Shown here: positions 26,048 through 45,793 of the stretch, piece after piece
How the letters are laid out: each line of letters opens with the position of its first letter
How positions within the stretch are numbered: position 1 is the first letter of the stretch
NCBI RefSeq assembly: GCF_019649055.1
Contig: NW_026570225.1
Span: 558,001-622,000 of the forward strand
Origin: Paramacrobiotus metropolitanus
Lineage: Eukaryota; Tardigrada; Eutardigrada; Parachela; Macrobiotidae
Length of the DNA: 64,000 bases
Direction: 5' to 3'
Made by a program: the position numbers and the translations under genes
Notes under the pieces: generated by a model
Database searches by the model: none
What the model was told of the DNA's origin: nothing
The model's input: only the letters and a program-made list of their open reading frames with translations

Positions 26048-27374
26048 TTTTTCCGGGGATCTGGGCAGCTTTCCGAATAATTACACCCGCTTGTTAGATT
26101 GCAGATGGCCTCGTTGTTTGGACAGGTCCTAATAGATGGAGATTTTAACACCGAATAAGCCTGCTCGGTCGGATGGGCAAGAGGTGAAGCAACACAGCAC
26201 ACATAATTTAACGTCTAGCAGCTCTAGCTGACTGCAAATCGTAATATAAAAGCATTTCCGATTGGTAAATCATAAATTTCCATAACATTACAGCGATTAC
26301 ATTCACAGATTGGAACAGTAAATCAAAAGAACCGACAACTGAATGAACACCCAGACAGACTGCTGATAAAATTAGTACGCTCACGAGTCACGGATGACAC
26401 TTCATCGCCAAAAAGCGTTTCCGCAAATTATAGCAGTACTGGGTATGTACGAGCGTCAGCATCGACCCCATTGGAAACAGCGCGATCACCACAACAGTCG
26501 TGCTCCTTTTCCCGGCGTAAAGAATTTTTATACCAGTGTCTAGAATTAGATGTGAAATTTCGTTAATCATAAAACAGCGTCAGAAAAAAAGGGAAAGCCA
26601 AAATGAGTATCGGAATTGCTTCAAAATGCACCGAACGCTTTTAGAAACCCAAAAAATTGACTGTGAACAGTGGGCTGGAGATCTGGAGTGTACCGTGCCG
26701 AACCTCCTGCCAGCAGAATATAATTTGTCCATCATGTTACGATTACGGGGTCGTTTGCCTTTAATAGGGAGCTTGCCAACCGCTAACTTCCTTTGGTCTT
26801 TGTCCCGAATCGTGATAACGAAGGAAACGAACGACACGTGGATGCTTCATGCTTGAACATAAAAGGGCTTTTCTTGATTTAATTTTATGAGATAAAAGCT
26901 ACCCATCTTGGAGTGGGAAGTCCGGAACTACTCCAAACTAGAAAGTAGGAATCTAGCCGAGTCGTGACTGGACATACCGTAACTAATACTAAGTGCATAC
27001 TCGTAAATTCGTAATTCAAACTGCCACAAAAGCCACGGAAAAAGAAAAGCTCCCAAACGTTCTGTATCGGCCAAACGAGTTTTTCTGCTTTTACCTTGTA
27101 AAATAATCTTAAGTACAGTATTATAGTAAATTATGGAATTTAAAATAAATCCTGATATTTAGCAAAAAATTCTTCTGGTCAAGCCGACTCAAGCGATCGA
27201 GGGTTTGTAAAATTGTATTAGCTTTCATACTTACCTATTATACAGATTAGTTGTGCTGTGCTTATGTCGCAAGGGGTGCCTCCGTAGGATTGGCTGTTCG
27301 AACATTGGTTGCGTGTCAAGAAAAACTTTTCGTTGAGGTTGCAGATTTTGAATTTTATCCGACGACGACAAGTA
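26048..27374. promoter_or_regulatory. Zinc-transporter upstream region; no certain gene
   Basis: Contains the ZIP promoter. The only frames with an ATG are short. One (26388-26570) is listed separately; another minus frame at 26580-26837, with Lys/Arg-rich residues, has no recognisable homology. Confidence 0.45.
26388..26570 (-). CDS. Possible small single-pass membrane protein (60 aa)
   Basis: An ATG-initiated 60-residue frame with a hydrophobic segment (VVVIALFPMGSMLTLV) between a short N terminus and a basic C terminus (YNLRKRFLAMKCHP). The layout resembles small inner-mitochondrial or SMIM-type proteins, and the PMG motif faintly recalls NDUFB1, but I do not recognise it. The frame may also be chance. 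Confidence 0.2.
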   Translation of the reverse strand: MINEISHLILDTGIKILYAGKRSTTVVVIALFPMGSMLTLVHTQYCYNLRKRFLAMKCHP

Positions 27375-27650
27375 TGGCGTACAAAACGCGCAAAATTAAA
27401 ATTACGTGAAGTGGTGAGTTATGAATGGTGATCTATAATTAGTGAATAATAACTGCTGATAGATTAGTGTTGATTAGAAAATGGTGATGTGAAAGTGATG
27501 GTTTGAACGCGGTGATTTTGAGTTAATTGGTAATTTATATGCGTGAGTTCAGAGCGGGGAGCTAAGAGCGGTGAGTTTAAACTCCTGATGTAATAGTGGT
27601 GATTTGAATGTGGTGACTTAGTAACGTAACTGGCGCCTTGTGCACCGGAA
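27375..27650 (+). repeat. Left terminal inverted repeat with GTGATT subterminal repeats
   Basis: Starts TGGCGTACAAAACGCGC after TA (27373-27374). The first 50 bp are near-identical to the reverse complement of 44781-44830. Inside, degenerate GTGATTTGAA-like units recur every 14-16 nt, and homology with the right copy ends at a shared ...CACCGGAA / AACCGGAA block. Confidence 0.8.
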
Positions 27651-27840
27651 AAGCGATTACGACCTTTGTGGTTCTGCTGAGTCATCTGTGTCTGTCATTC
27701 AGCTGTGCTAGCAGCTAGTTTTACTGTTTACACTTTACACTTTACAGTACTTACTTGCGATTTGCGAATATGCGTCTAGCTTTTAAAACTGGATTCTTCC
27801 CGTTCTTCCCATTTTTTGGGTTTCCGTTGATGTCACAGTA

Positions 27841-28350
27841 TGTCTCTACGAGTGGATATCACTTTGCAGCCTGCAGATGTGTTTGCGTCGAGAGCTGCGA
27901 CTGTTCCAGAGAACCAGTTGGCCGAAGTGTATGACGAGGTTCCTATTGAAGTTTGCTTTCCTGGAAAGTTAATCGTAAGTGCACTGATCCAAAATTAATA
28001 ATCATTTAATTATGTGATTATCTGAAAGTCTCTAATATAAAACGGTTTATTTCGTGTGCAGCTTGCAGTCAGGCTGGGATAAATTCACCGCTGAAATGGT
28101 GGAAAAGATTAAAAAGGTTTGTGAAAAGTTAAGGATTTTCATCTTGCTCGTAATCGCTGCATTTCGGTGTGCAGCCAGCTTGCGTGGTCGATAGTACTCG
28201 ATACAGTTAAAGTTTTTACACGATGATGTTGTCTTGTGCAAGTTGCTGCGCGCAAGGACGTTACGCTTGCAGTGGATTCGGACGAGATTGATATTGAAGG
28301 AAAGACTTTTTTGTGGGCGTGCTGAAAATGAAGAACGATAAAGTTGAGGT
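27841..28350 (+). CDS. Unrecognised split gene or fragment near the left end of the element
   Basis: An ATG exon 27841-27975 (MSLRVDITLQPADVFASRAA ... EVCFPGKLI) ends in a gtaagt donor. A second likely exon after TGCAG at 28069 reads SGWDKFTAEMVEKIKK, and a third near 28242-28350 has DVTLAVDSDEIDIEGK, but the frame breaks in a T6 run. No family is recognised. It may be an element gene or another captured fragment; the break suggests decay. Confidence 0.3.
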
Positions 28351-28755
28351 TTGTGTAAAATTAAACAGGTTAAAGTTTTTCGAAATTTGAAAATCAATTT
28401 TCAGTTTTTATAAGTATTTATAAGCTTACTAAATTTGTGATTAAATTATGGTTTAAGTGTTGTTCCGATAAAAGATAATTTGCACAAAGTCAAGTGTGCT
28501 GCGTGAGTAGTACCACGGTTTTTCCGTTTACTTTTTTTTTGAATCAGGTTCTGAGATCTTTTTGCACAGTAATTTTTATCCTACTTGATCTTTTTCTGCT
28601 TCCTTATGAGCTTTGCCTCATCTTTTTATAAAAAGAATTTTGATGTCAGCAGCTAAAGATGGCTTGCTCTAAATTAATGGAAATGTCGCATCTTTTGATT
28701 TTAATCGTGTGCTTTTGTTTTGGTGAGTACGTATACGGTTTATTAAGTGACTAGT

Positions 28756-30020
28756 AGACCCCGCGCAAATTGCGCGCAATATATAGGCTACCGGCTACGG
28801 AATAGGAACGATTTAAAATCATAAGGATATCATGATTATTATTATTTATTTTTGATGAAAAATATCACGGTTAACTTTTCGTATCATGCGTTGTATTGTA
28901 TGTGCGAATAATTTTTCATGGCCACGTCACAAACTTGGAGCAATCGTAAATTCCCAAGGTCGGATGCCGGAAACAGCACTATGACTCAGAACTATGGAGC
29001 ACATGTTGCTCATTTGACGTTTCTGGTTTCTGCATATCCCACCCGTAAAAATAATTTTTCCACCCATGCCCTTTAAATCCGAAAATATCAGTATGGGAAA
29101 TGGTGGGAAAGCGGAATGCAATCCCGTGCAAAAAAATTGCCACGATTAATGTTTCACTTGATGCCCCGCTCGCGCCGCAGCTCGGCGTCGCCTGCGGCTT
29201 TGTCTTCGGTTCTTATTCCACACGTTGGAGAACAATCAGATTTTCTGAAAATTTATGACGCAAAGGAAAAACCTACTCTAATGATCCGTGACATCTGGAG
29301 CCACCGTTGCCTACTCTTCTCAAATCAAACTTTTGCTGGCTCTGCTGCTGACTTTGATATGTAAGATGTGTATCGAATGACAGACCCCGTGCAAATCGCG
29401 CGGTTTAAATCGGCTTCGTAATTCATATCGTTCTGTAGATAATGTTTTGCTGCTGATTTTTATTACATTTTTAAAACGTTTTCTGCCAGGCTGCTTCGCC
29501 TTCTGCTGGTTGTCACAGATTTTACAAAACAGAAATTTTAGAAAATCCTTTGTTACTGCTTTCGAGCCGGCAAATTCTGCCAAAAAATGCGTACTTCCAA
29601 TGCTCACCAGTCACCAGCTGCTGCCCTTGGGCGCGCTGCTACTTTAAAACTGGTCAGACTTCTGCGGAGGACAGTTGTCTTAATGATCATGCTTGAACTG
29701 CGCGATACGCTTCGACTCTTCGTTGCTTTTTTCATCAAACCCTCCTTTCTTTCGGAGTCTGAATTTCGATGAGAAATTAGAAACGCATTTATAAACATTC
29801 AAGTTTCGTTCCAGTGAAACGTTGTGCAAGCCCGTGGCTGCTTGGCAGCAAAAAGGTTTTGGCTGTTTATTTGAGACAATGGTGAGGTGGTCGGTTCTGC
29901 AATGGTGGATTCTTCACTTCTCCCGTAGACTCGGCATGTTACGTTTTTTCAATTTTTTCATGAAACTGGAACTGTTTTTCTCAGATCTAACTTTTGATGG
30001 CTCTACTACATGATGAGAGC
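28756..30020 (+). repeat. Degenerate direct repeats in the left arm of the element
   Basis: AGACCCCGCGCAAATTGCGCG at 28756-28776 recurs as AGACCCCGTGCAAATCGCGCG at 29382-29402. The words CTTTTGCTGGCTCTGCTG (about 29328) and CTTTTGATGGCTCTACTA (about 29990) recur with the same TATCGAA neighbour. This indicates an old internal duplication of about 0.6 kb units. No coding function is apparent. Confidence 0.5.
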
Positions 30021-30029
30021 TATCGAACG

Positions 30030-31943
30030 ATAGCAAGATATCGAAGTTTGGTCTTGTGTGTGGCTGGGGCTGACTCCCCGCAGTTGAATTTTGAGCACTT
30101 CTTATTCTTTTAGTATAAAGGATGTAAGCGTCAAACGACGGTTCGGGACTTTTGGTTTTAATTTGGTAGTGTTAAATAAAATATCATACGAATATGTTCT
30201 TCAATGGCAGTCCCATTTTTCTTTCTTAATCTTACAGCTTGTTAAATCGTTTAATAATTAATGTACACGTAGTACATAGAGTAGGTGTTTCGAGAATAGA
30301 AACCACCGCAATATGCAGTGGCATTTTCGTGTTTGGGTATTACTCAATACTTAAGCAGTTTACCGGGTGGCCGTACAAAATGTCGGTCTCCTGATTTGGT
30401 TTGTTTCTCGCGAACCATTTGTCCTATCGTAAAGTAGTTAGAGGCGTTCGATAGAAAATTTAATTAGCTACCAGAAACAGTAAAATCTGTTTCAGAAAAT
30501 TAAAACATGCTGATTAACAACAGTGTTAATACAAACGTGTGGAAATTTATTTGTCCCGCTCGCAAACTTGTGAACCTGGTGTTACGTTTTTCCACCACGC
30601 AAAATTTTATTTTTTTCACCTGTTTTACTTAGCGAACACTTTCTGCTTTTTAAAGAAAAACAGGTTGTTTGCATGGTCAAATGGTGCATGCTCTGAATGA
30701 GCTATGCAGTTCCCGCATTTTGTGACCTTTCGAAAAACTGCAAGTTTTTTGTCAGATTTTTTCGCTTATTTTAGGGAAAATTTTTTGCTCCAAAACAGGC
30801 TGCAACCAGATAAGCCGATTCGGCTGATAAATTTAGCTAAATGATTGCTCTTATGGGAATACGTTTAAGCCTTGTCAGTTTCTGAAGCGTCAGAGAGAAA
30901 TTTGTTATTAAAACACCGGCTAGCTGATTTCACGAGAATCGTATGTGCGGTACTTTGTGCTTACCGCTTTTAGCCCAAACACATCCAGCAAAGGTCACAT
31001 GTTTTTACTTTTGTAAAGCGAGGAGATGAACAAGAAACATTTTCCCTCCCGAAATAGTAAGGTTACACCCATGAAAATACTTCGTCGAATAACGGCAATT
31101 TTGAATTCAAAAATGACAAAGTTCAGTTTTGGTTTCCGGGACATCCTCCAACTTCACCCATTTTTTCAAAAGAATTTGTAAAAAATTCAAAGCTTTGTAT
31201 GATATTGGTTTCTCCTGTTTTTTATATGGAACGGACACTGCTCTTTCAAATGAAACTAGAAAGCTGTCAATTAAAGGCTGGATGGACCAGCAACACTTCA
31301 AAGAACGGACCGACATTTTTGTTCGGCCACCCAGTACAAACACAGCTACGTTTGGATTTCACCATTTAAAAACTTTTTTCGGTTTCTTGTTCCCGGGTTG
31401 GGGCTATAATACAATAAAAAAGTAAATAAATATACGTAAAATTTTAAATTTTAACCATAATCACCCACCCTTGGCGTGAGACGTGCTCGTGACATCCAAA
31501 GTCGGCCGGCAGGCGCGACTACAGACGTTTCGCCACTGGTTGTCACTTGATTGTAAGTGCTTTCGCTACGTGTCGTTTTATTAAAATTTAAGTACCACCA
31601 GTGCTCTTGCGTTTAAACGAATTGTCGTAAAAGCCTACGATGAACGGTTTATCGTAAACTTTGCCATGCTTGCGATGAGAATTGCGAGGTATTTGATTTG
31701 CTACAATTCCTGCAACAGTACCATCTTGGACAACATCTTTTGTTTGTAATTAGCGATGTTTTTTCGTCATAATTAAGTTGATTTGAATGCTGTGTTCAGC
31801 CTCTGTACCCCTTGACACTGTAAACCTGCTTGTGCATACAGACAGCGGCCGCCGCAGGTGCTCATCCGTACGTTTATATTTTCGTAGGGCTGCATATCGC
31901 TGGTTCCTCCCTCGGATAATTTGACGTTGCTGATACCTTCATT
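30030..31943. other. Noncoding part of the element's left arm
   Basis: No gene recognised. Frames at 31107-31425 look open on both strands but lack homology or splice support. The stretch before 31944 may include the former ANT promoter. Confidence 0.4.
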
Positions 31944-33320
31944 ATGGATGCGACAGCAGTAATCAAGGATTTTATGACCGGGGGAATTGCCGCAGCCATT
32001 TTCAAAACGGCTGTAGCCCCGTTAGAGCGTGTCAAGCTCATTAAACAGGTGCAGAAAGACTATAGAAAGCAGCAGCGCTATAAAGCATGATGGGCGCTTT
32101 CATTTGTATTTGAAAGAGCGGGAATAAATCAATTTCTGATGTGGTAATCAGGCCAACGTCTTTCGTTATTTCCCCACGCAAGCCTTGAATTTTGCATTTA
32201 AAGGCCAATGTGAGCGCATCTTCTTGTCGGGCGATGACAAGGATAAACAGTTTTTCTCCTTCTTCTTGGGCAAGGTTCTGGCCGGGGGTGCAGCTGGTAT
32301 GAAGTCGCTGGTTTTACCTTGGATTTTGCCCGAACTCTGCTTGGTATGTACTTGTACGAGTACTATATACTTTCTGGCTCTTTGCGAGAAAGTTTAGTTC
32401 GTCGTTTCCATTTAACCGGATCGAAATTGCTGATTATCCGTTATTGCGAGTAACTGAATTATTTTTCTAAAATTAATAGATTTATGGAATTATAGCAGCT
32501 TACAGTCTAGAACTTGGATTCCGAGTTAATTACATTAAGACGTATGTTCCAATCCCTCTTTCTGTTTTCAACAGTGTTTTTCGGAATTGACATCATTTGT
32601 TGTGTAATGTTATGTGATTTCCATAATTTAGTCTCAGAAGTTTGGAATTTGAACAGTAAACACAAATATTGTACAATAGTATTGCAAAAAGATTTCAACA
32701 GTTTAGTACAGTAGATCGGACATGCATGGAATTGCTGGCTGACTGGCTGACTACGTATGAAATGAGCTGTTTTTTAGGAGTGGATGTCAGTAAAAACGCG
32801 GGGACTCGTGAGTTCACTGGTTTATGGAACTGTATGAGAAAAACCTACCAAACCGATGGCATTCGCGGCTTGTATCGCAGCTTCAACGTTTCCATCCAGG
32901 GAATATTTATTTATCGAGCTGCATATTTTGGTGTATCTGACACATTTAAAATTTACTTCGAAGAAGGCAAAGTGCCCATCATGCTTAACTTTATGATCGC
33001 CCTCACCGTCACGGCGATTGCCGAATTTATGGCGTAATTCTAACTCAGCTCCGTTATAAGTACGTTTTCTGATTTTTGTTTGTGCTTTAGGTATCCGCGG
33101 GATACCGTGCGACGACGCGTGATGATGTAGTCGGCAGGCAAGGAAATTTTCTACAAGAATTCACTGGACGCCATGATGAAAATTGCCAAAAATTAAGATT
33201 TCCCGACATCCTTTATGGGCGCCCTGTCCAACATGTTCCGTGGCATTGGTGGTGCGCTGGTGTTAGTTATTTTCGATGAATTGAGACACGCTATGGAACT
33301 GCGGCCAGGTGCGAGCAAGC
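31944..33320 (+). pseudogene. Adenine nucleotide translocator (SLC25A4/5-type) pseudogene
   Basis: ANT exchanges ADP and ATP across the inner mitochondrial membrane. The copy opens [20 protein letters not shown], with [13 protein letters not shown], and contains [50 protein letters not shown] and YPRDTVRRR. The last is the ANT signature region RRRMMM with Met changed to Val. Frameshifts occur near 32085-32160 and 32285-32330, and in-frame stops at 33128-33130 and 33193-33195. The intron between about 32345 and 32785 is retained, so it is a DNA-level copy, not a processed pseudogene. It lies on the plus strand within the putative transposon, opposite to its neighbours. Confidence 0.9.
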
Positions 33321-33424
33321 TCGGTCATTAACTGGACACCGTGTGGAATTGATTGCTATTTCCGATTACCGCAGTTATCGAAGTGTTCAGCTCGAGATTT
33401 TCTTGATGTATTTGATTCCTTTGT

Positions 33425-33484
33425 CATAATGATTTCTTTACTACAATTGTATAAAAAAACAATTGTAGTAAAGAAATCATTATG
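33425..33484. repeat. Perfect 26-bp inverted repeat (hairpin, 8-nt loop)
   Basis: Arms 33425-33450 and 33459-33484 are exact reverse complements, with loop ATAAAAAA. It follows the ANT pseudogene by about 100 bp. A transcript would form an uninterrupted 26-bp stem. Confidence 0.95.
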
Positions 33485-33539
33485 TTTTACATACTTAATT
33501 CTGTCAAATTTATTTGTTAGATGTTTTTAATATGAGCCG

Positions 33540-34183
33540 CACAGATCATGATCCAGGTGGGCGGCGCGCTTAACATTTGAGTAATAATAGATGTTTTTTA
33601 AGTATGCGTACCGGTTAAAAGTTTGAAAGTCTCGCGTGGGAAATATTGTAGTTGGCTCCGAGTAGTCGGTGACAGATTTTTCGGCTGACGAACGTCGCGT
33701 TTAATTAAAATCAGTTCAGTTTCTCAATCATAACATAAAACAAGGATAACAAATTACTGAAATTAATTACGCTGGAACATAAAGAAAATTCCCGTTGCCG
33801 AAGGAACTAGTACTCAAATGCCATGCGGCTATTCATATGCTATGCGGCCAGCAAAATGTGCTGGAGAATTTCCTATAAAACCAAACAGATTTCCACTTAA
33901 CGGTTATCAAAGCCATTAACAGCATGTTGCAAAACTAAATGAAGTCCAATATTCCGTAATCCATTCAAGTCGGATACAAATTCAGTTGATTATTCCACCC
34001 AAAACAGGAACGAAAACAAATCCGTAATTTCTCACTCCACACGACTGCCCAGCTACCGCTTAACAATCCCTCAAAAATACAGCGATTTAGCAATAATTTA
34101 ATTTAATTATGTGATTTATGGTTGAATTAGGGTGTTAAAAATTCAAATAGTCATTAATAAAGTAAATTTCCCTTACACGTTAT
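33540..34183. other. Noncoding spacer inside the element
   Basis: AT-rich, with no gene or clear repeat. Confidence 0.45.
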
Positions 34184-37100
34184 TCATTTCATCTGGAAAA
34201 ATCCCGCCATCTCGCTGTCTACAGATAAAATGCACTCGCGAAGGTGCAGCCGCAGTTTGTCCTTGGACTCGCATCCGATGGGTAGCATAAGCTTATGGCT
34301 GCATGTAGATGCCTGAGGGCGACGTTCTTCTTCTCGTCCAACGGAAAAACAATTGCGATTTTCGGAGTGGCCGGAATGCGGTACCCGGAAGTAACAAAAC
34401 GGAGCAGTTGTCGTCGTTCATGGTGGCTAAGGTCGTGTTTGACAATTTCATCAAACCAGTTCACAATCTGCAGCTGCTCAGCCATCAGCTCATCGCTAAT
34501 ATCTTCGGCATGTTCATTGTACGGCAGAAACTCTTCCAGCAAATCGTCTCCTTCTTCAAACTCTCGATAAAGGCTTTTCTCGAAGAATTTCCATTGAGCA
34601 CGTATTTCTCTCAGCTCCTACAACGATTTTATTGCAAGTAAGAGCAATCACACGCACTGAAAAAAGTGATTCATACCTTTCCCATCGTTCCGGCCAGCAA
34701 ACCTTCACTTAGATATTTTAAATTAGAGGCTCGCTTCCCGCACAGTTCATACTCGGCGATGTGTCGACACAATTTCTGGCGTCCTTGTTGCACCAACGCA
34801 ACAGTCTGCAATATAACACTTCAGTGCTATCCACAATTTAAAGACGTTGTTAGTTGTTCAGTTTTCTTAAATTTAATATTATAGGGCAATTTCGTCGAAT
34901 TTTACCGGGAAAGCTGGATGATTCTCTGCCCAAGTCTGCAAGGATGTTTCATTTGCCCAGACGATCGGCCCCGTGCCCGATAGGATGTCCTTGATGGTAT
35001 CGCCGGTTCCAACGTTGAAGCGGAAAATATCATTCACTTCTACTGGCAAGTTCAGAACGTACCGGAAAGCGGAATTATTAAACCACTGAGGAAACGGACT
35101 CCCATGAAGTATTGCTTCACGCAGAAGAAATCCAAATGCCCGCAAAGCCGAGATGCCGCCTTCTGTTGTAATAGCTTTTCCGGTTACCAAAGTAATCCCA
35201 TCAGTCACTTCGAATAATTCCATATCAACATCCGGAATCTTGTACGAGCGGAATCCTTCCAAAAGCTCCGTGATACATTCTTTGAAAGGCCCGTCAAAAT
35301 CCGACGCACTACAAGAATAAACTTTTTATGTGCATGTTATCTTTAACACGGCGTATTTTAACACAGTTTTCAATACCGGCGCGTAAACTACTGTAGCCGC
35401 TAGATGAAGTGAGACCACAGAGTCTGGTGTACGGAAAAATGCACGCCCAATATATGTACTTTGCTCCATGCAAAAATGTTTTTGATTCCCTCTGCTTCTA
35501 CCAACATTTGACATGTTTTACTGTTCTTTGCTATTTTTTAATTCTTTGCAACGAAAGATATTTGTTTTAAGAGCACAATGACACAGCTCTAATAGTTTTC
35601 TATTTATAAATCTGGTTTGTTGTGGTTTCTGGGGTGCCCCTGGCAGGGGCAGCACAATACTAAATGCAATGCAAAGTGTGCGCCGCCCGGTGGGAGGAAG
35701 GCTCGTGCTCAATGCCTGACGAGTGGAAGGCAGCGCCCGGATCTAACAGTGGTCTCACTTCATCTAGCGGCTACAGTACATAATACAGCTCACAGATACA
35801 CCCGTGTCTGTTACAGTAGCGCGCTTATATACATGTCAAAAATAAAAAATCTTCAAACTGAAAAGCACAGTTATTACACTTACTCATCCATTTCCACCTC
35901 CATTCTTCCGCCATAAGCCAAACCATCAGCACGCGCATAGTAAAAGTCGATAAAATTTTGTACGTTGCTGCTTCCTTTAATCCAAACAAATACGAAGTCG
36001 GATTTGACCATTGGTCGCTGACCGGTAACTTTTAAGCACAGCCGAGATCTCATGCTTTCAATCGATATTTCACTTGCGCCTGGGTCAACTTCAGGAAATT
36101 CAGCGACTTCAATAATCTGCAAAATAAAAAGCATAAATTTTTGTTCGATTTAATCGTTCAAAACCAATAACCTGTTCTGTAACTGCGGGACTACTGGCCG
36201 CGACAACGTTCTTCTTCTCCTCTTCAGCTTCGCTGTTATCCGAGTCACCAAGTACGATGACGTTATTGTTTAATTGACGACCAGAAGCACTATCGCTGAA
36301 CATTAATCGACCGCGACGACGGCGAGGCAAATCCGGTGAAGACGGCGGAGACGGAGAAGTATCGTCTAACCGTCCCCGAAAGGAATTCCTTGATGCAGAC
36401 ACACTTCCAAAGCCGTATGTAGAAGCAACGGAGGCACTTCCGAAGCGGGAGGATGCACTGGATGCACTCCCGAAGCCGAATGATGCACTGGATGCACTAC
36501 GGAAGCCGGACGTAGAAGCACGGTCGGCACTCCCCAAGGCGGGTGTAGAAGCACGGGAGGCACTCCCCAAAGCGGATGTAGAAGCACGGGATGTTTCTCG
36601 CAGACCAAAAAGCGATCGGGGATTTGTGATACCAGCTGGAAAAGTCTTCTTCAGTAACGATAGCAATATAGTTTTGACCTCGGATGTATTTTTTACTTGG
36701 AACGTTTCGTAAATCCAGTTCTTCCACAGTTCTTCCTTGATCCTGTAAACACATATTATCATAGCGGCATACGTCATATCGTTTCGTTAATACAAACTAT
36801 TTACCGCAGCAAATTCCTCAAAGATTTCCCGCGGAATATTCAGTGTACCATGAGCTAGAGCGATATACATGCGTCTTCGCGCTTGGTTTACGGCCCTCTC
36901 GGTGTATCTGAAAATCGTATGCGACAGTTCAAACCAGCAGAATATTCTATGCGAAATTACCGCTTTAACATTTTTCACTTTGTACGTACAAGTCTTGATC
37001 CGCCCACGATGGAGATAAAATATCCAAATCTGTTGGCCAAATAAACGGACTCTTCAGCTTTCCCGGCTCATCAAGTCGGCTCAACAACGTCCATTCCTGG

Positions 37101-37216
37101 TTGCCAAGACAATCCCCAAACGTTTCGGAAATTTTTGCGTAGATGTGATGACCTTCCAGTACGTCAAACTCAACTTGCCGAATTAGTCCCGCTTTCCGCA
37201 TGAAATCTAGTTCCAT
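34184..37216 (-). CDS. HECT-type E3 ubiquitin ligase (G2E3-like), element-associated; possibly frameshifted
   Basis: HECT ligases accept ubiquitin on a catalytic Cys before passing it to substrates. Start ATG at 37216 (MELDFMRKAGLIRQVEFDVL). Exons follow at about 36803-36906, 36173-36742, 35880-36119, 34886-35308, 34678-34803 and 34184-34612. The middle exon has a Ser/Ala/Gly tandem repeat then an acidic, basic-patch linker. The HECT N-lobe has ITLVTGKAITTEGGISALRA and GFLLREAILHGSPFPQWF; the C-lobe has LRFVTSGYRIPATPKIAI and the catalytic RPQASTCSHKLMLP. Between the last two the reading frame changes: either a one-base shift near 34316-34352 or a 38-nt GT-AG intron (34313-34350). The C terminus ends AGFFQMK at 34184. 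The resemblance to multicopy G2E3-like proteins is from memory. Confidence 0.7.
36390..36610 (-). repeat. Coding minisatellite in the HECT-ligase gene
   Basis: About six 33-39-nt units encode 11-13-residue repeats of the type SRASTSALGSA / DRASTSGFRSA / SSASSRFGSA. A disordered Ser/Gly linker, likely length-polymorphic. Confidence 0.8.
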
Positions 37217-37385
37217 CTGATATTCGCTGTAAATAACATCAGCTATGAGGAAAACGTATACATTTCAAACATAAAACGTACTTAAAAATCAACTAGAGTA
37301 CAAACATTTTATTTTTCAATTAAAACTAAACAGATATTTAAGATTTAAATTGTTCTCTAATAAGAAACCCTTACACCCACAAAAT

Positions 37386-38165
37386 TCACAACCCCACTCG
37401 CTGGGACGGAATCTGATTTCCTTCGGCGCTACGAAAAAAGTAAATCTCCATGGGATATTTACGGTGTACTACTGGCCTCTGATTCACTGGCTGTCCGAAT
37501 TGGTTTGAACCGGTCATTGAGCGAAATTCCTCCGTTCTGGGTCGCTTGACTGCATACTGCTGCCCGCCACGGCCTCGCCGGCTGCCCCGGCCACTGCCGA
37601 CCGGCAAAGATAAAATTCCCACATTCGAATTGCTTGAAAATCCAGGTGGTACAGATCCACGTGCCGGTGCTCTTGGAATGCCTGGCTGTCCACCGCCAAA
37701 TGTACTCCAAGGCAACTCACGCTGCTGGAAGTTTCGCAATGGATGTACTGTACTACTTGCCAGGCCGTAAGGTTCCATACTAAAGGCTTGATATTGACCC
37801 TGCCCCGCATTTCCTGTGAAACCCTGAGCTCTGCTTCCAGAAACTGGCGGCTGAACAATTTGTGCTCCGCTTCCTTGCGGGCTGATATCAGCGTGCTGGG
37901 CCGTAGTTGTGGATCCGGTGATACTTGCAGCATTTTCATTTATAAGGGAGCGATGGCTAGCGGAGTTTCCCATGTAAGAATTCAATTCGAGATTAACAGC
38001 TGCCGATAAACTACAGCGAACATGCAGACCGTACTCGTGATTACATCCAAAAACACTGCATTTAAGCCCGCCCAACGGTCCGCTCCAGGAAAAATCGATG
38101 TCAGCCTTTAATGGGATCACACATGGGCAATCTCTTACCCCACATTTATAGCTAAAATCAACCAT
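37386..38165 (-). CDS. Cys-rich N terminus / RGG-tail protein, unrecognised
   Basis: A single-exon 259-residue frame from MVDFSYKCGVRDCPC. The first 50 residues have a zinc-finger-like arrangement of Cys and His (C-x4-C-x-C ... C-x4-C-x-H ... H-x2-C). The rest is Ser/Gly/Gln-rich and disordered, ending with SGRGSRRGRGGQQ (an RGG-type nucleic-acid-binding tract) and a basic patch VKRPRTEE that looks like a nuclear localisation signal. It lies directly upstream of the HECT gene on the same strand, so the two may be co-transcribed element genes. No family is recognised. Confidence 0.5.
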   Translation of the reverse strand: MVDFSYKCGVRDCPCVIPLKADIDFSWSGPLGGLKCSVFGCNHEYGLHVRCSLSAAVNLELNSYMGNSASHRSLINENAASITGSTTTAQHADISPQGSGAQIVQPPVSGSRAQGFTGNAGQGQYQAFSMEPYGLASSTVHPLRNFQQRELPWSTFGGGQPGIPRAPARGSVPPGFSSNSNVGILSLPVGSGRGSRRGRGGQQYAVKRPRTEEFRSMTGSNQFGQPVNQRPVVHRKYPMEIYFFRSAEGNQIPSQRVGL

Positions 38166-39023
38166 TTTAGTCACACACAGGAAACGCAAAACAAAAAAAT
38201 GTTTTGTCAACGAAAATAAGATAAATTCGATGTTTCTACGCTCCACTTTAAAAGAAACCGACTGATGTGAATTAAGCTGAATCTGCCGCTTAAAATAAGT
38301 TTGACAGTTCTTACAGTAACCCATGCGTAAGGCGTGGCAATAACTGACCAGCTACGAGCAAGCTGCGAATAAATAACCATTGGCGCCACAGCAGCTTATA
38401 GCGGCATGCTGGTGGGAACAAGAACAGACAGCCCACTTGCGGTAACTTAGTTCTTCCATGCCGCTCGCAAATCAATTGTCTACAAATTTTGGCCGGCATA
38501 AAACAAAGGCTTCCGCTTATTAGTCGTGTTCCACTGCCGATTTTTACCATACGCGTATTGTTCTCGACAACAAACTTTCTTGTGAAACGATTTTTGCGGA
38601 AAAAAGTAAAATAAATCAGCAGAGTAATTCATTCGTCGCACACGGTTCCGGTTTAGGATTCAGCAAAGTATTTTTCTGCAGTAACATCATGCGCTTTGTA
38701 AAAAACACATAAAATTTTATTTGCAATGCATTCAACACATTATGCGGCAAACGAAGCTAACCGCCGGTCAAATACAACTATGGAGCTTTGGTTTTTTTGA
38801 GCATAGGATTACTCAAACAACTAACAATTAGTAGCAAAAAAACGAGTGCAGTTATGATGATGCAGTTATGACGATCCCGTTATCTTGCACAGGCTAAAAA
38901 ACGAACGAGAGCGAAACCAAAAACATAACGGAATCATAGGTGAGCCAGTTACATACTTTTACTTAGCGCGTTATAATACTGTAACGACAGACCTTAGCTC
39001 TGTTTATGTCTTTTGGCATGGTA
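38166..39023. other. Spacer between RGG protein and AMT pseudogene
   Basis: AT-rich. The upstream extension of the RGG frame (to 38324) has Cys/His residues but no ATG advantage. No gene recognised. Confidence 0.4.
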
Positions 39024-40660
39024 CTAATTTGCTTGCGCAAAAGGCATTTTCGAAACTTTTCCCTCCACAATCTGGTTGCGCACTTTGATTCGCAAAGGTG
39101 TACCAGGCTTTGAAAGCGAGGTGTTCACATAATCCATCGAAATATTTGTTCCCAAGGACGGTGCGGGGCATCCACTAGTAACCTTGCCAACTTGTTCTTC
39201 TTTCTCGTCGACAATAGCATAGCTCTAGGTAAAAAGACAAAGTCACAGCAAATCTGGATTTCGCATCCATTAATATTTCCAGAACACAAAACTTACAGAA
39301 CATACAGATTTACAAAACATTTACGGACAAACTCCAAGTTTGCAAAGGCACTGTTTCGATGACATGCAAACGATGCCAGTTGATAAATCGCATCCATACA
39401 ATTTCGTGCGTAATATGGCCGCAAGTTTTCACACTTCGGGCAGGTGCTCCAGTGGAAATAATTCCAACACGTTTTTTCTGCGCGCCCCCTCTGATTTGGG
39501 GAAGTATTTTCTCTGCACCCGGAAATCCACCCTCTTTGCGACGGCGTTTTCCTACAATAACGCATATATTTCCAACAATTACAAATTTTTGGGAATACTT
39601 TGAAATTTCGTTGCTTGCTTTAATAGGTTTACCTACTGTCCAGGTCAGGTCAGCTTCTACCGGTGTCGCTTGTTCGTTAATATCGTTTCCGGACAAACAC
39701 AGATCGGCTTCCAGCCGGAGTGAATCCCTGGCTTCCAAACCAGCCATTCGTACCTGCCCCTTAACGTACCACGTACCACGCGACTTTAACAATATATCAC
39801 ATAAAGGCGCAGCATCTTTGGAAAGACAGGATATCTGCAGCAAGTTTGAATTATGCATGGGAACACTAGAGCGTCCATCGTGTAAGCACTGAGCACGTGC
39901 CTCCACGCCATCTTCGCCGGTGTAGCCGCATTTGGTAATTCGGCATCCCTCAAATCCGTACAGTGTACAAAACGTAGTCTGCATGAATTCCAAGCTATCC
40001 ACCGAATCCTTTAAGCCGGGCTGAATAACTCTTGACATTTCCGGTCCTAATCACTGAAAAAAGGACATATATACGGCAAAAGGTTAAGTGTCACTGTGAC
40101 CGTAACTTCGAATCAAACGAACGAAATCGAAAGCACATTTTTCTTTAACATAATGCCGAATAGGTACAATACTGACAAAAAGTCTGTTTTTATCGGTAAT
40201 ATGATAACTCCATGCCAATACATACTTTTAACAGTTTTTTAAACGTCGTCATGCTGAAACAGAACGTGAGCAATTACTTATATAATCCGAACAGCAATTA
40301 TGAATGCAGATTTCCGTTACAACAAACCTTGAACAGCAATCAAAGCTCTTTCCTGCACAGTAACGATGCCAATTTGAGCATCCTTCCCTTTCTTCTGGAA
40401 GCCCAAGACTTTTTTCGTTAAATATTCTAGATCTTTTGCCGCACAACCGACGTTAACAACAGCGAAGAGATGTCCGCGACTGGTATTCATCTACACCGTA
40501 TCATCAATGATGCCACCGTTCTCGTTGGTTAACAAACTTAATGTGCCGCTGTTTTCCGGTTGCTTTTTAACATCCGACATGCAAACAGATTCCCAGAATT
40601 CATGCCGATCGTTGCCGTGAATGACCAGCTGTTGCATGTGACACCTGCACAACAATAAAA
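39024..40660 (-). pseudogene. Aminomethyltransferase (glycine cleavage T protein) fragment with a premature stop
   Basis: AMT transfers the aminomethyl carbon of glycine to tetrahydrofolate in mitochondria. The copy begins mid-protein at VSHMQQLVIHGN (about 40650) and continues through GTLSLLTNENGGIIDDTV, a TAG stop (40491-40493), and NTSRGHLFAVVNVGC. Later exons carry CGYTGEDGVE, GLEARDSLRLEADLCLSGND, TPVEADLTWTVGK, KRRRKEGGFPGA, GKVTSGCPAPSLGTNI and VSKMPFAQAN to the natural stop at 39024. Introns are kept. The first ~80 residues (mitochondrial presequence and substrate pocket start) have no exon upstream. Apart from truncation and one stop the frame is well preserved, so capture or duplication is fairly recent. 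Confidence 0.9.
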
Positions 40661-41025
40661 ACAGCATAACAAAAAAAGTAAACATTCACAAGTTTGAACT
40701 TTTTTATTCAGACAATCCGATGCATACAGCCATGTAAATATTATTTGGACTTTACGGCAGTGGTAACATAAAGGATAACGTAATCTGCAGTACAGTATTG
40801 TAAGCGCTGACTTTCTGACCATCGCTGACCATGAGATACTTAACAGGTATTTTTTAAGCATAAATTAATATTAACACGAAAACACACTGCAAAATACACG
40901 AATTTAATACACTGCAAGCGAGAAAAATGCAAGACCTTCCGTCAGCAATACTGTACTTTCATCAAAAATACTGCAGTGTTTCCGAGTATGGATGTGAGAT
41001 TCCGAAATGGACTGGTCTTGATAAA

Positions 41026-42074
41026 TCAACGGCATTGACCGGGTCTTCCTGCAAAACGTCTGAGGAAGTCAAATCTGTTATGTTCTACTAAAACGCTCAT
41101 ACCCTTGCGATACGAAATCATTGCACAAGCGAATGAAAACTTTATCCCTGATGCCAATTCCGTTTTTGGTGGCTGAAAATTACAACGACTATGCCAGTGT
41201 GTAAAATCGTCGTCCGTGCTAGTCACCAAAGCTGCGATCGAATAATTTCTTCGTTTGATGTCGTGATAGGCGTCCACTCCAATCACCATAAGGCTCATCT
41301 GATCTTCTTCTGAAAAACAAATTAACAATACGAAATTTGTTGTCATTATCTTCATAACAGCAGATTTAACCTTACCTTGTCAGCATTTTAGCCATGCGCC
41401 AAATGGATCCACCCAGCTTGCAATTGATTTGCAAAGCGATTTTCTGCACAATTGCGCGCAAACGATCTGCTCTTCCCAGTGTACAACTCACAATGACCTG
41501 TGAAGCGATTAAACAAGTTTAGAAGTGTGATATCCATAGAAAACCTTGTTTAAATTTTAAGCTAGAGCAAAATATTATACTTTGTCTTCGACCGCGGCTT
41601 TAGCAATGCTATGGGCATATGTGATGTTTTGATCGGCAGTTAGCATGATAATCTGCGGATTTCCGAACCGCATGCCAGAACTTTGACTGACGTCACGGAA
41701 GGCGCGAGCAAACTCTTCCGCACATTTTTGGTCCCGCTTTTGGAAAACCAAGGTCCAATGTTCCGCCCCTCTGGGATCTATAAGCATTCAGCACGTCTTT
41801 AGGAACTTCTTCCGGTGCCATTCGGAAAATTACGTTTTTGGACGACTGTCCAACAGCACGAGTGCTTTGCACGCCACAATAAGTAACGATGTAATTTCTG
41901 CCGGTCTTCATATCCATGGGAAGATGACTGTTGAAGCGTTATCCAAGTCAACCGATCCCGCGTGCTTGCAAGGATGCCAAACTTCCTTAACGCAGCTGAA
42001 CGAGACCAGAAGCAAACCAGATCAATTCGCATAATAATTCCGACACAATAAAATAATGCACACCAATCTATCAC
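41026..42074 (-). pseudogene. PIWI-clade Argonaute fragment
   Basis: PIWI proteins use piRNAs to silence transposons. Minus-strand exons give LIDPRGAEHWTLVFQKRDQK (MID/PIWI border), FARAFRDVSQSSGMRFGNPQ, KIALQINCKLGGSIWRM and MSLMVIGVDAYHDIKR, which includes the first catalytic Asp of the PIWI RNase-H fold, then FTHWHSRCNFQPPKTELASGIK. The frame ends at 41026 before the second catalytic Asp (usual RDGVGDGQ) and His. No N-terminal, PAZ or complete MID region is present, and frames switch near 41780. It is therefore a partial, non-catalytic copy within the element, flanked by the AMT fragment and the transposase. Confidence 0.85.
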
Positions 42075-42492
42075 ATACTTTGTAACTTAAGTTTTGACAG
42101 CGGGCATGTACGGAACAGCTCTTCATCGGACTTACGTGTAAGTGTCGTTAATAACCGGCGGAACGTACACGTATTTTCACGAGGCGGCGTACTGTATTAA
42201 AAATTCTTCTGTCACCGCAGCGGTTTCTTCTCAGTTAACATGCTTGCCGCAAATTTAATTCTCACCAAGCCGTGTTGCGTTTTCACCATGAAAACAATGC
42301 ATCCAACAATTACAAAACGTTAAATTCAGCAGAAGCAGTCAATTACAACGCTAACTTACTAAAGCAATAAACTCACTTTCGCTTTCTGAAAGATTAGCTA
42401 GCTTCTAACACTGCCGGTAGTAATATTATCAACGGAAAGCAGTACTAAGGTTTTTTTCTAAAATTCGGACACACTGATTTGTCAGTCTACCA
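42075..42492. other. Spacer between PIWI fragment and transposase
   Basis: 418 bp, no gene seen. It presumably holds the 3' end of the transposase transcript. Confidence 0.45.
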
Positions 42493-44290
42493 TTAACCAA
42501 AATAATGTTGTAACATTTCTTTCGCTTCGCAAAAAACCTGAATTCCATGAAATCCATCATCCCGCATCAGATCCATACTAGCCCGAATTACCTGAGCTTC
42601 AACAGGGAAACTGCTGATTTTATCGCACACCGGGACAGAATCCCTTGAATGGCCAACTTGATTTCTTAAGTACTGAGGGAAATTTTCTGCGACATCCACG
42701 TCGGCGTTAGGCAGTGCATTGTCGACCGATAAGATTTCTTCCAGAGGAAAACCTTTCAGTCCCTTCTGATTGCAGCCGAGAACAAACAACTGCCTTGGTG
42801 ACTTTTCGCCCTCCGTGCGCAATTTGTGGTTATTAAAAAAAGAAATGAAGCTATTGAGCTTATTCTGTATTCTTTCCGTGAATACTAAGTGCAAAACCAT
42901 CATGTCGCGGGCACTCGTCATATCCAAAATTTGCATATTTTCCATGTGAATGAAAATAGATCGAAATAATTTAATCACAACGCGACCCAAGTCTCTCCAC
43001 AGCCGTTCTATCCGCTGATTGTGAACTGACGGTCCCATAATGATACTGGCGCGGTTCGGACCCATATAATGCTCCATCCAGCGTGCAACTCCGAAATTTT
43101 CACCTAGTTATACAAAATAGTAAAATCAGTCAGAACTGAAAACTGTCAACTCATACACAGAAAAACACTGATGAAAAGCAACAATCGCAAAACTGACAAA
43201 GGCGCAAAACAGTATTGTACACCTTACCGCCGCAATCGCTTCTCACTCTGGACGGCACTCCCCAAGCTTCAGCGCCAACGAGGAAGGCCTGCAGCACTGT
43301 ACTTGCGCGATTGTTCGTTGCAACGACGAGAGCAATAACCATTCGAGAGTAACCGTCAATAATCCCGTGTATTACGAATCCCCAGCGAACCAACTTGTGA
43401 TTGCCATCAATGTGCCACAGCGCGTTTGGGCCAGCATTTGAATAAATGCGGCGAGGGACAAAATGGAAAAACCGATTAGCTATGCCATACGGATCCAGTC
43501 TTCTCATAGAAGCCAGAATTCTCGTGCGTTGGACTGTTAAACCTCCTGATTTTAACTGGCCGTTAATGTAACGATATCCTACGTTCGGGAACGAATTTAA
43601 AATATCCACAATTACGCGATCCAAATCCACATCACTCAATTCCGAATACTGAAAAAGCAAACGAATTTAAATTAACACATAGCCTGCTTATTACGTATAT
43701 AATGATCAAAAAAGGTAAAAATTCACCAATGCAAATCTGCAACGAACTAAAATATCTACGAGTACTGCACCCAACCGTGCCGTGATGCTGGCACATACAC
43801 TTACTTTCCTATTCAAGCCAGCATCTGCCAATCTGTACGTGACTGTCCTCTTAGAAACTCCATAAAGCTTAGCAATATCATTCACAGTAAATCCCTCGAA
43901 CCGCAGTTCAGCTAAATCATCCTCCAGAAGGAATATTTTTCCATCTACTTTGGTGTGCTGCGTGATGGGAAAAACGGACGCAGTCCCGTTTTCGTCTTCT
44001 TGCAGTAGATCCCGTAAGCGACTGGAGTAGTTAATTAAAACATCAAAAAGCTCTTGCGCTTGCACCGTCCGCTCCTCCGGAACATTTTCGCAGATATCTC
44101 TAGTATATCTAACAAATAAAACATTCAAAATTCCAACAAATTGATTTGTCAACCGTTGCTGTTTGGGTAAGTTACCCAAGCAAATAATCCATCTGCGTCA
44201 GCGCTCCGTCAACCCCATCTTGATCTTGATCCCCATTCTGGACTGTTAGATAACGCTCGCACGTCTTACAACCGAGTACGCAAACTCAAA
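42493..44290 (-). CDS. DDE integrase-type transposase (rve core), apparently intact
   Basis: Catalyses element excision and integration. Minus-strand exons: about 44167-44290 (Cys motif CVLGCKTCERYL, then MDYLLG), 43807-44107, about 43227-43650 and 42493-43103. A helix-turn-helix (FTVNDIAKLYGVSKRTVTYR) precedes the RNase-H-like core: first Asp in LWHIDGNHKLVRWG, second Asp in RVRSDCGGENFGVARW (Gly codon split by an intron), Glu in VHNQRIERLWRD. A tail with FFNNHKLRTEGEKSPRQLF follows. This arrangement is that of a eukaryotic integrase family with many fish, cnidarian and arthropod copies (I believe IS3EU/Ginger-like; class not certain). No stop or frameshift was found in the core. The N-terminal start is unresolved. 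Confidence 0.85.
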
Positions 44291-44555
44291 AACTGATCCA
44301 TTTCAAATTTCTCTTGGTTTTCTAACAAATAAAGTGGGAAGTAAACACTGAAAACATTAGAGACTTGCTCTTAAATGGATCACCAACTAATCCAGATTCA
44401 CTAAGTATACTGTAGTACCATTAGAAGAGCCTTTCCAGTACAAATAACTGTCACTTCCAAAAAATACGTTAAATTCCACTCACTCATTGGAACTGGTAGG
44501 GTGGAATGGGAATTTACAAAAACTCAGAAAAAATTATAAGTCCGGAAATTAGGCT

Positions 44556-44830
44556 TCCGGTTGACGAGGCGGCAGTCACGTTGCTGAATCACCACTCTAT
44601 CATCACCACTTTTTAATCACCCCAGTCTTATCATCATTGTTAAATCAGCAGTATCTAATCAGCACTATTTAATCAGCACTATTGATTCACCATTTTGAAT
44701 CACCACTTAAAGATCACCGATTTAATTAAAATCAACAGTTATTAATGAAACGTTATTATTCACTACCTATAGCTCACCACTCATAACTCACCACTTCACG
44801 TAATTTTAATTTTGCGCGTTTTGTACGCCA
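44556..44830 (-). repeat. Right terminal inverted repeat
   Basis: The reverse complement starts TGGCGTACAAAACGCGC, next to TA at 44831-44832, and continues with GTGATT-type units, ending at AACCGGAA. It matches the left end over its first 50 bp almost without change and more loosely over the rest. Confidence 0.8.
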
Positions 44831-44832
44831 TA

Positions 44833-45793
44833 GACAAGCCCTGTGAAGATAGGAAAACTACATTTTCTGGACATGCTTAACGGAATCGAAATGTCTTTAC
44901 GGAACCACTGAAAAGTACTGTAACTTTTATATGTTTTATTAGACCGCGTGCGATGACAAAGTGCTGCTTGTGGCAAAATTCAAAATGCACCATTAATTGG
45001 ATTTACGCCCATTTTTTTACTGGAATTTTCAATATTTTTAAGTTAAGCAGTTTGACATGGTAAAGGTGCTGTGCGACTGAAAAAAGGCAGTAGCAATATG
45101 CATGGAGAAACATAAATTCAAAGATTGTTATTCGTAACTGCTAGACAACGGGAGTACGGCACGACGACACAGTAGATTTGGAATTTCAGACACTCTCGGC
45201 ATCTCCCCGAAGACGGGAAAATGAAAATTCCAAAAATTCGGTTTTTTGGAATTTTCAGAAGATGACAGGTTCAGCCAAAATGCTTAGCCTGGCAAATTTC
45301 CGAGCCGAGCTAAAACTCTGACCAATCACAGCTTCCTTGGCGTGACGTCAATTTCAATTTTCGGTAGCACGATCATTTTCGACTTCCGGTTGCATTTTGC
45401 TTTGGAGCAAATCGCACTAGGTACATTAGCTTTTGATTAATCATCTTCGTCGTTGATAAGTCCTTAAACGTCTTAAAGTATACTCGTAGCCATCGGCCCA
45501 TCCATTTCAGTGCTACCTTCTTGGCTTTTGTTAGTTTCGTAATTTGAAAGCTGAAAGCACTCCTTGTTGTTAGATGGTAGTGACTAGTCCTTACTTCTGA
45601 CGGATTGGCGGCTTCTGTTTGCACCTGCCAAATCTGCAGCCGACACGGACTTTGACGCAAGTATTTATGTCATGCATAATACGAACCTTCAGTTTCGCCA
45701 AGGAACGGGCACGTATATGTGAGTAGCAGCTGCCACTGATTGCCTGCATGGTCCAGCCTTTCATCCACGTACATTCTGCACGTCTGCGCGAGA
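44833..45793. promoter_or_regulatory. Upstream region of the first GALNT gene
   Basis: Contains a short perfect hairpin at 45223-45256 (arms AAAATTCCAAAAA / TTTTTGGAATTTT). No gene is recognised. The minus frame 45373-45660 lacks an ATG. Confidence 0.45.

Follow-up and report, generated by a model that had tools for sequence, protein, structure and literature searches.

We describe a mobile element in a window of 64,000 nucleotides of the Paramacrobiotus metropolitanus genome (positions 558001–622000 of contig NW_026570225.1, here C5). The element occupies window positions 27373–44832 (17,460 bp). It is very probably an IS3EU-type transposon of 17.46 kb with two predicted genes, for a DDE transposase and a HECT ubiquitin ligase, and with decayed DNA copies of fn3-domain, PIWI, aminomethyltransferase (AMT) and ANT genes, for which template switching during gap repair is the likely route of entry. 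Positions without a contig are those of the window, and C-numbers (e.g., C2, C5, C26) denote contigs of the 169.8-Mb, 533-contig genome.

Structure and mobility of the element

The ends of the element form inverted arms (27373–27475 and 44730–44832) that are 88% complementary and terminate in TATGGCG...CGCCATA; in 24 kb, no other inverted pair reached 40 nt. Searches of the genome with both end sequences recovered paired ends on C5, C26, C112, C34, C2, and C88, and only partial matches on C82 and C126. The full unit, with matching borders and unrelated flanks, is present as five two-ended copies at five sites, the window copy (W) among them, and a 979-bp derivative occupies a sixth. Perfect 6-bp duplications (GACAAG, AGTGAC, GTGATG, CACATT, GTACAG, and CTTCAG) flank all six insertions. 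The element moves as a unit. An initial interpretation of the window from its letters alone (hereafter the sequence-only reading) had proposed one giant cargo-carrying element, and the paired ends, target duplications, and common internal content at five sites bear this out; the genome search with both ends that it recommended likewise showed that the ends recur as pairs with common content at other sites. It had also placed each inverted end beside a flanking TA. The inverted ends stand, but TA as a target duplication was ruled out by lining up the copies: the TA is part of the terminus and the duplication is 6 bp.

These insertions make up the W family, which comprises W-type copies (W, C26, and C112), C34-type copies (C34 and C2), and the C88 derivative. 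Contig C2 holds one W-family copy, the sister elements C2a and C2b, and the host sources of the PIWI and fn3 DNA. Over 17,482 columns, W differs from the C26 copy by 18 substitutions and 94 gap openings; it differs from the C112 copy by 20 substitutions over four blocks, and the C34 and C2 copies differ by 24 substitutions and 116 gap openings over 15,177 columns. Since gap openings outnumber substitutions approximately five-fold in the W/C26 and C34/C2 comparisons, we read them as long-read assembly error and gave single-base frameshifts no weight. Between W-type and C34-type copies, identity is 78–95% by block. The C112 copy (C112:159810–201641) measures 41.8 kb, owing to nested insertions of approximately 21.6 and 3.0 kb, and the C88 derivative (C88:417214–418192) retains both ends and the 6-bp duplication, matching W at its ends only.

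Transposase and HECT genes

The predicted transposase gene comprises open frames at 43706–44197, 43151–43666, and 42493–43107 and a putative first exon. The sequence-only reading of an intact-looking DDE integrase gene pointing inward from the right end was correct as to domain and direction, with rva_4 profile (PF24764) matches at E-values of 2.6e-32 and 2.1e-35; it was not correct as to intactness, given that three exons are open and the first contains an in-frame stop relative to the NCBI model. In the C112 copy, the NCBI integrase model (P0001) runs on into captured fn3 sequence at the C-terminus, a predicted chimera that could be a real transcript or a prediction error.

The HECT domain of the window matches PF00632 (E 2.6e-6). 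In the C8 copy, a member of a sister family, the HECT gene is a single NCBI model of 897 aa (P0121; PF00632, E 3.9e-15), whose Cys-rich/RGG N-terminus resembles, by eye, the Cys/RGG frame of the window. Although a HECT ligase and a separate Cys/RGG protein had been proposed from the letters alone, only the HECT domain was upheld as described: the sister models P0121 and P0122 join the two parts, which are probably one gene. P0123, a sister-copy NCBI HECT model from another family, is without the RGG part. Cysteine C859, which we take to be the catalytic cysteine of the HECT domain, is invariant in all three aligned proteins, and a TCS motif was seen by eye at the matching position of the window copy. 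Repeats of approximately 33 bp lie at 36389–36589, in the Ser/Thr-rich linker of the gene.

Genome searches with an integrase exon gave 33 matches, or 27 distinct places after grouping, and those with a HECT exon gave 21 matches, or 19 distinct places. All HECT places but one (on C56) have an integrase place no more than 10 kb away (18 of 19). This ruled out HECT as captured cargo and indicates that HECT is a standing core partner of the transposase. Gene order is rearranged in some elements: HECT is opposite in orientation to the integrase in those on C3, C421, and C61, and lies upstream of it on C88 (19–26 kb) and C45.

Differences between W and C34 are concentrated at third codon positions, numbering 11, 6, and 47 at the first, second, and third positions of three integrase exons and 2, 2, and 12 in two HECT exons. 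Across the integrase and HECT exons, synonymous changes outnumber nonsynonymous changes by 55 to 17. Such bias is expected of selected proteins and indicates that the transposase and HECT are under selection in the W family, the one family tested. The HECT protein would likely be an element-encoded helper. Three observations pull the other way. Approximately nine of the 27 integrase places had no HECT match within 10 kb in the one-exon search; the RGG exon of the HECT gene, excluded from the sum, shows no third-position bias (6, 7, and 5 differences); and two protein searches, limited by word sensitivity, found no relatives of the HECT protein outside P. metropolitanus among the best 7,993 and 7,988 candidates scored. 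Integrase relatives are present in other animals and fungi.

Placement in the IS3EU superfamily

Excerpts of the literature describe IS3EU families as having TA..TA termini and usually 6-bp target duplications (PMC10045372), and fungal TET-bearing members as having TAYGG..CCRTA ends and carrying alpha-kinase and TET/JBP genes (PMC12730594). We observed ends of the TAYGG..CCRTA type at both termini of five of the six W-family insertions, the C88 derivative having TAAGG at one end, and also in the sister elements C2b, C4, C28, and C8. Four sister insertions were inspected for duplications, of which C2b and C28 have perfect 6-bp copies. The predicted transposases P0001 and P0002 contain a PF24764 (rva_4) domain together with a weaker rve match just below the curated cut-off; no HHCC motif was seen by eye in the predicted transposase protein. 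Membership of the IS3EU superfamily is consistent with the termini, with the 6-bp duplication, and with the rva_4 domain of the DDE transposase. Less favorable to this placement, which was made by termini, duplication, and domain, are the duplications of C4, which match at five of six bases, and of C8, which are 5 bp.

Host DNA in the window element

Four host sources contribute DNA to the element. Domain matches in the window include mitochondrial carrier (ANT), GCV_T (AMT), and Piwi (E 7e-9), and the host source of the PIWI piece falls in the PIWI clade, with EfPiwi as the best match (E 3.4e-63). The AMT, PIWI, and ANT captures include introns, and host copies of these genes lie elsewhere in the genome on C6, C2, and C62, respectively. 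The sequence-only reading recognized these three genes correctly but undercounted the sources, since 41793–42201 derives from an fn3 gene. It was also right that ANT contains introns and is broken, in-frame stops being present, but not that it is a fragment, as the piece has its full set of three coding exons together with further DNA. A second segment resembling C62:691.0–691.2 kb lies at 30121–30232 (73% identity). We also considered 27700–28450 as a possible fifth captured gene: the interval matched only the element's own copies, C88, and short stretches near C4-family ends, with weak or short matches also on C416 (75%), C52, and C1.

The fn3, PIWI, and AMT pieces lie between the integrase and HECT genes and share the orientation of the transposase, and ANT, on the far side of HECT, is oppositely oriented. 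AMT is nested in PIWI: the order runs from PIWI parent positions 2432–1576 through AMT to PIWI 1099 onward, so that AMT replaces parent bases 1100–1575. The C34 and C2 copies have the same layout and keep more PIWI sequence on both sides. Relative to the host copies, substitutions amount to 6.7% for AMT, 7.7% and 15.4% for the two PIWI parts, 14.5% for fn3, and 13.6% for ANT; between W and C34, they amount to 5.8% for AMT, 6.7% for ANT, 7.3% and 8.7% for PIWI, and 12.5% for fn3. AMT is less diverged than ANT and one PIWI part (15.4%), as expected from its nested position; the other PIWI part is at 7.7%. Assuming similar rates, the capture of AMT probably postdates that of ANT and slightly predates the split of the W- and C34-subfamilies.

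Captured DNA in three sister families

Three sister families, represented by the elements on C4, C28, and C8, also contain foreign DNA in the integrase–HECT interval, and each has TATGG...CCATA ends. The C4 element (16.1 kb), which has at least six copies at 99% identity or more in this interval, has captured 1 kb of an AGO-clade gene on C20 (PAZ domain; human AGO1, E 1.7e-20) along with 3 kb of the NDUFS2 gene on C10. Scattered pieces matching the NDUFS2 interval of the C4 family occur at C10:1789–1831 kb, possibly a local duplicate family. In the C28 element (16.5 kb), a C3 piece is enclosed by a pair of oppositely oriented C15 pieces, one of which holds EF-hand coding sequence. The C8 element (14.3 kb) holds 1.8 kb from C34:662–665 kb. 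Three of the nine captured sources (ANT, AMT, and NDUFS2) are presumably genes for mitochondrial proteins, which may be chance. In the C28, C8, and C4 elements, the 5–6.5 kb that separate HECT from the far end could hold further captured DNA.

We had considered C8 and C2a as capture-free controls; C8 was found to hold a foreign piece and C2a was not. C2a matches C8 on either side of the insert, lacks the 1,801-bp insert itself, and has 3 bases between the matching blocks. At the left junction, TGATATT is common to the host source, the filled copy (C8), and the unfilled copy (C2a). These alignments point to C2a as the unfilled counterpart of the C8 capture site.

Route of capture and alternative explanations

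We propose that the transposase would cut and paste the element, that internal breaks, often between the transposase and HECT genes, would be repaired by copying unrelated host DNA, and that the enlarged element would stay mobile because its ends and transposase are intact. The mosaic sources, introns, nested piece, opposite-strand pieces, and unfilled sister fit break repair with template switching. Several points temper this model. Microhomology is clear at only one of eight junctions inspected, the remaining junctions having few common bases, and template switching hence rests mainly on the mosaic structure. Because C2a is a diverged sister of C8 (81–84%), loss of the insert from C2a is not strictly excluded. 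Moreover, the C34:662–665 kb source matches no Pfam family below E 0.06 and the C3 source no Pfam family at all, so that these two are only presumed host genes.

Capture through the insertion of another mobile element, or through RNA copies, finds some support in the C8 insert, where source DNA is colinear with internal gaps and ATATT-like bases stand on both sides. We nevertheless regard this route as unlikely: introns are present in AMT, PIWI, and ANT, the three larger gaps in the source DNA of the C8 insert lack GT..AG borders, and pieces of unrelated loci are joined, with the two C15 pieces oppositely oriented.

The Argonaute-family captures raise the question of whether RNA made from the PIWI and AGO pieces weakens the host's silencing of the element, as a decoy or through small RNAs against host genes, such that the captured DNA would not be neutral. 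Two of the nine sources belong to the Argonaute family, and they occur in two transposon families (PIWI clade and AGO clade). With approximately 17 Argonaute-family loci by our own grouping, the chance of at least one more among the other eight sources, given PIWI, is 0.5–1.2%, a rough estimate that assumes 6 kb per gene and 40–100% of the genome available. However, the PIWI and AGO pieces are both sense relative to the transposase, and read-through of the co-directional PIWI piece would thus yield sense RNA, not the antisense transcripts that the sequence-only reading had suggested could feed piRNAs against the host gene. The PIWI parts are 7.7–15.4% different from the host copy and the AGO piece is 84% identical, seven of the nine sources have no known silencing link, and the Argonaute count is small and partly post hoc. 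An effect on silencing is therefore improbable, and the finding of two Argonaute-family captures is suggestive only; the AGO-clade piece in the C4 sister family may leave a wider silencing idea possible. A broader scenario, in which HECT-bearing IS3EU transposons repeatedly take up host DNA at a single internal hotspot of repair, with lineages that hold PIWI or AGO pieces spreading as their RNA weakens silencing, is similarly doubtful.

Functional cargo, with captured genes still making useful proteins, is very unlikely. The ANT, AMT, and PIWI pieces are retained in both subfamilies, but ten of their exons show no third-position bias between W and C34 (43, 40, and 45 differences by codon position; Fisher p = 9e-8 versus integrase and HECT), and single-change codons comprise 27 synonymous and 81 nonsynonymous changes. 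This pattern indicates neutral decay, and in-frame stops interrupt ANT, AMT, and PIWI exons in one or both of W and C34. At the protein level, the captured genes are apparently passengers. Finally, there is practically no chance that a segmental duplication happens to lie between short elements of separate origin, such as the two unrelated miniature inverted-repeat transposable elements (MITEs) that the sequence-only reading had named as its potential refutation: a short two-ended derivative does exist, but this sole MITE-like copy (C88) itself has both ends, and chance flanking is refuted by the recurrence of the whole unit at five sites, with matching borders and a separate 6-bp duplication at every site.

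Table 1. Features of the W element and its borders (window positions).
Feature	Position	Strand	Basis
Left target duplication, GACAAG	27367..27372	.	Read at border; perfect 6-bp duplications in 6/6 paired insertions
Left terminal sequence, TATGGCG...	27373..27650	+	First 103 bases pair with right end
DNA like C62:691.0–691.2 kb, near host ANT gene	28536..28745	+	80% identity
Nested dispersed repeat	28740..30123	.	Many copies, up to 98% identity; absent from C2, C34
Second nested dispersed repeat	30361..31337	.	Many copies, mostly 75–87%; absent from C2, C34
Whole ANT gene (host C62:685.8–688.1 kb), decayed, beyond HECT	31345..33529	+	80% identity, 2,298 columns; in-frame stops
HECT gene (predicted)	34219..38351	-	Pfam; NCBI models P0121 and P0122 of sister copies unite the parts; presumed joined in window
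HECT gene part: HECT domain	34219..35325	-	
HECT gene part: Ser/Thr-rich linker	36109..36786	-	
HECT gene part: Cys-rich/RGG N-terminal	37386..38351	-	
PIWI piece, second part, other side of AMT	38622..38739	-	82% identity, 119 columns; longer in C34, C2 copies
AMT gene DNA (host C6:1125.7–1128.0 kb), inside PIWI piece	38740..41040	-	89.3% identity, 2,360 columns
PIWI-clade gene DNA (host C2:261.2–262.0 kb)	41040..41789	-	85–89% identity; 95 bp missing at 41509/41510
fn3-domain gene DNA (host C2:1497.6–1498.0 kb)	41793..42201	-	82% identity; Pfam fn3 in host copy
rva_4 DDE transposase gene (predicted), ~4 exons	42493..44302	-	Pfam PF24764; NCBI model P0001 of C112 copy; third-position-biased copy differences
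Right terminal sequence, ...CGCCATA	44560..44832	-	Last 103 bases pair with left end
Right target duplication, GACAAG	44833..44838	.	Read at border; compared across insertions

Comparison with known systems

Four large families occur in one small animal genome. Because the sources persist and one filled/unfilled pair is available, the captures show directly in what order they came, how old they are relative to one another, and where their borders lie. The regular pairing of HECT with an IS3EU transposase in an animal suggests that the element may act on host ubiquitin pathways, and the two Argonaute-family captures offer a testable case of conflict between element and silencing in tardigrades. 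In the open-licence literature, we found no paper that brings together IS3EU and HECT, and none on captured Argonaute genes or on tardigrade gene capture.

Giant eukaryotic transposons such as Polinton, Teratorn, Helitron, and Terminon have ends or enzymes that differ from those of the tardigrade element. Protein-primed DNA polymerase B and capsid genes are hallmarks of Polinton/Maverick elements, and neither was seen among the frames scanned, which were only part of the element's frames. The tardigrade element does resemble these giants in its size and extra genes, as portrayed in parts of a review (PMC6431247); the word HECT is absent from the main text of that review.

The sequence-only reading had compared the element with Pack-type transposons, which holds for its captured host DNA; however, the element keeps a selected transposase and HECT, unlike plant Pack-MULEs, for which transposase is described as supplied in trans (PMC6431247, in part). 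Animal Pack-TIRs, as far as extracts of a survey describe them (PMC8277862), likewise enclose host DNA within the ends of a single DNA transposon, with gap filling or fork switching proposed as the capture route. That survey took inserts of 100–5,000 bp and reported four multicopy cases and mostly short single-copy events. In contrast, the tardigrade element is 17.46 kb, outside the 100–5,000-bp rule, has its own predicted transposase and HECT, and draws on several host sources, and capture recurs in four families of one genome.

The tardigrade element also has close counterparts in IS3EU and GingerRoot elements, for which passages of PMC10045372 and PMC12730594 describe the same TA..TA ends, TAYGG..CCRTA motif, 6-bp duplications, and DDE transposase; like the fungal TET-bearing members (PMC12730594), the tardigrade elements have additional genes aboard. 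They differ in having HECT rather than alpha-kinase/TET genes, in their length of 14–17.5 kb, and in their decayed captured host genes. Capture of host DNA by animal DNA transposons is already known, and what differs in this genome is its scale, the retention of selected core genes, the several sources, and the recurrence in four families.

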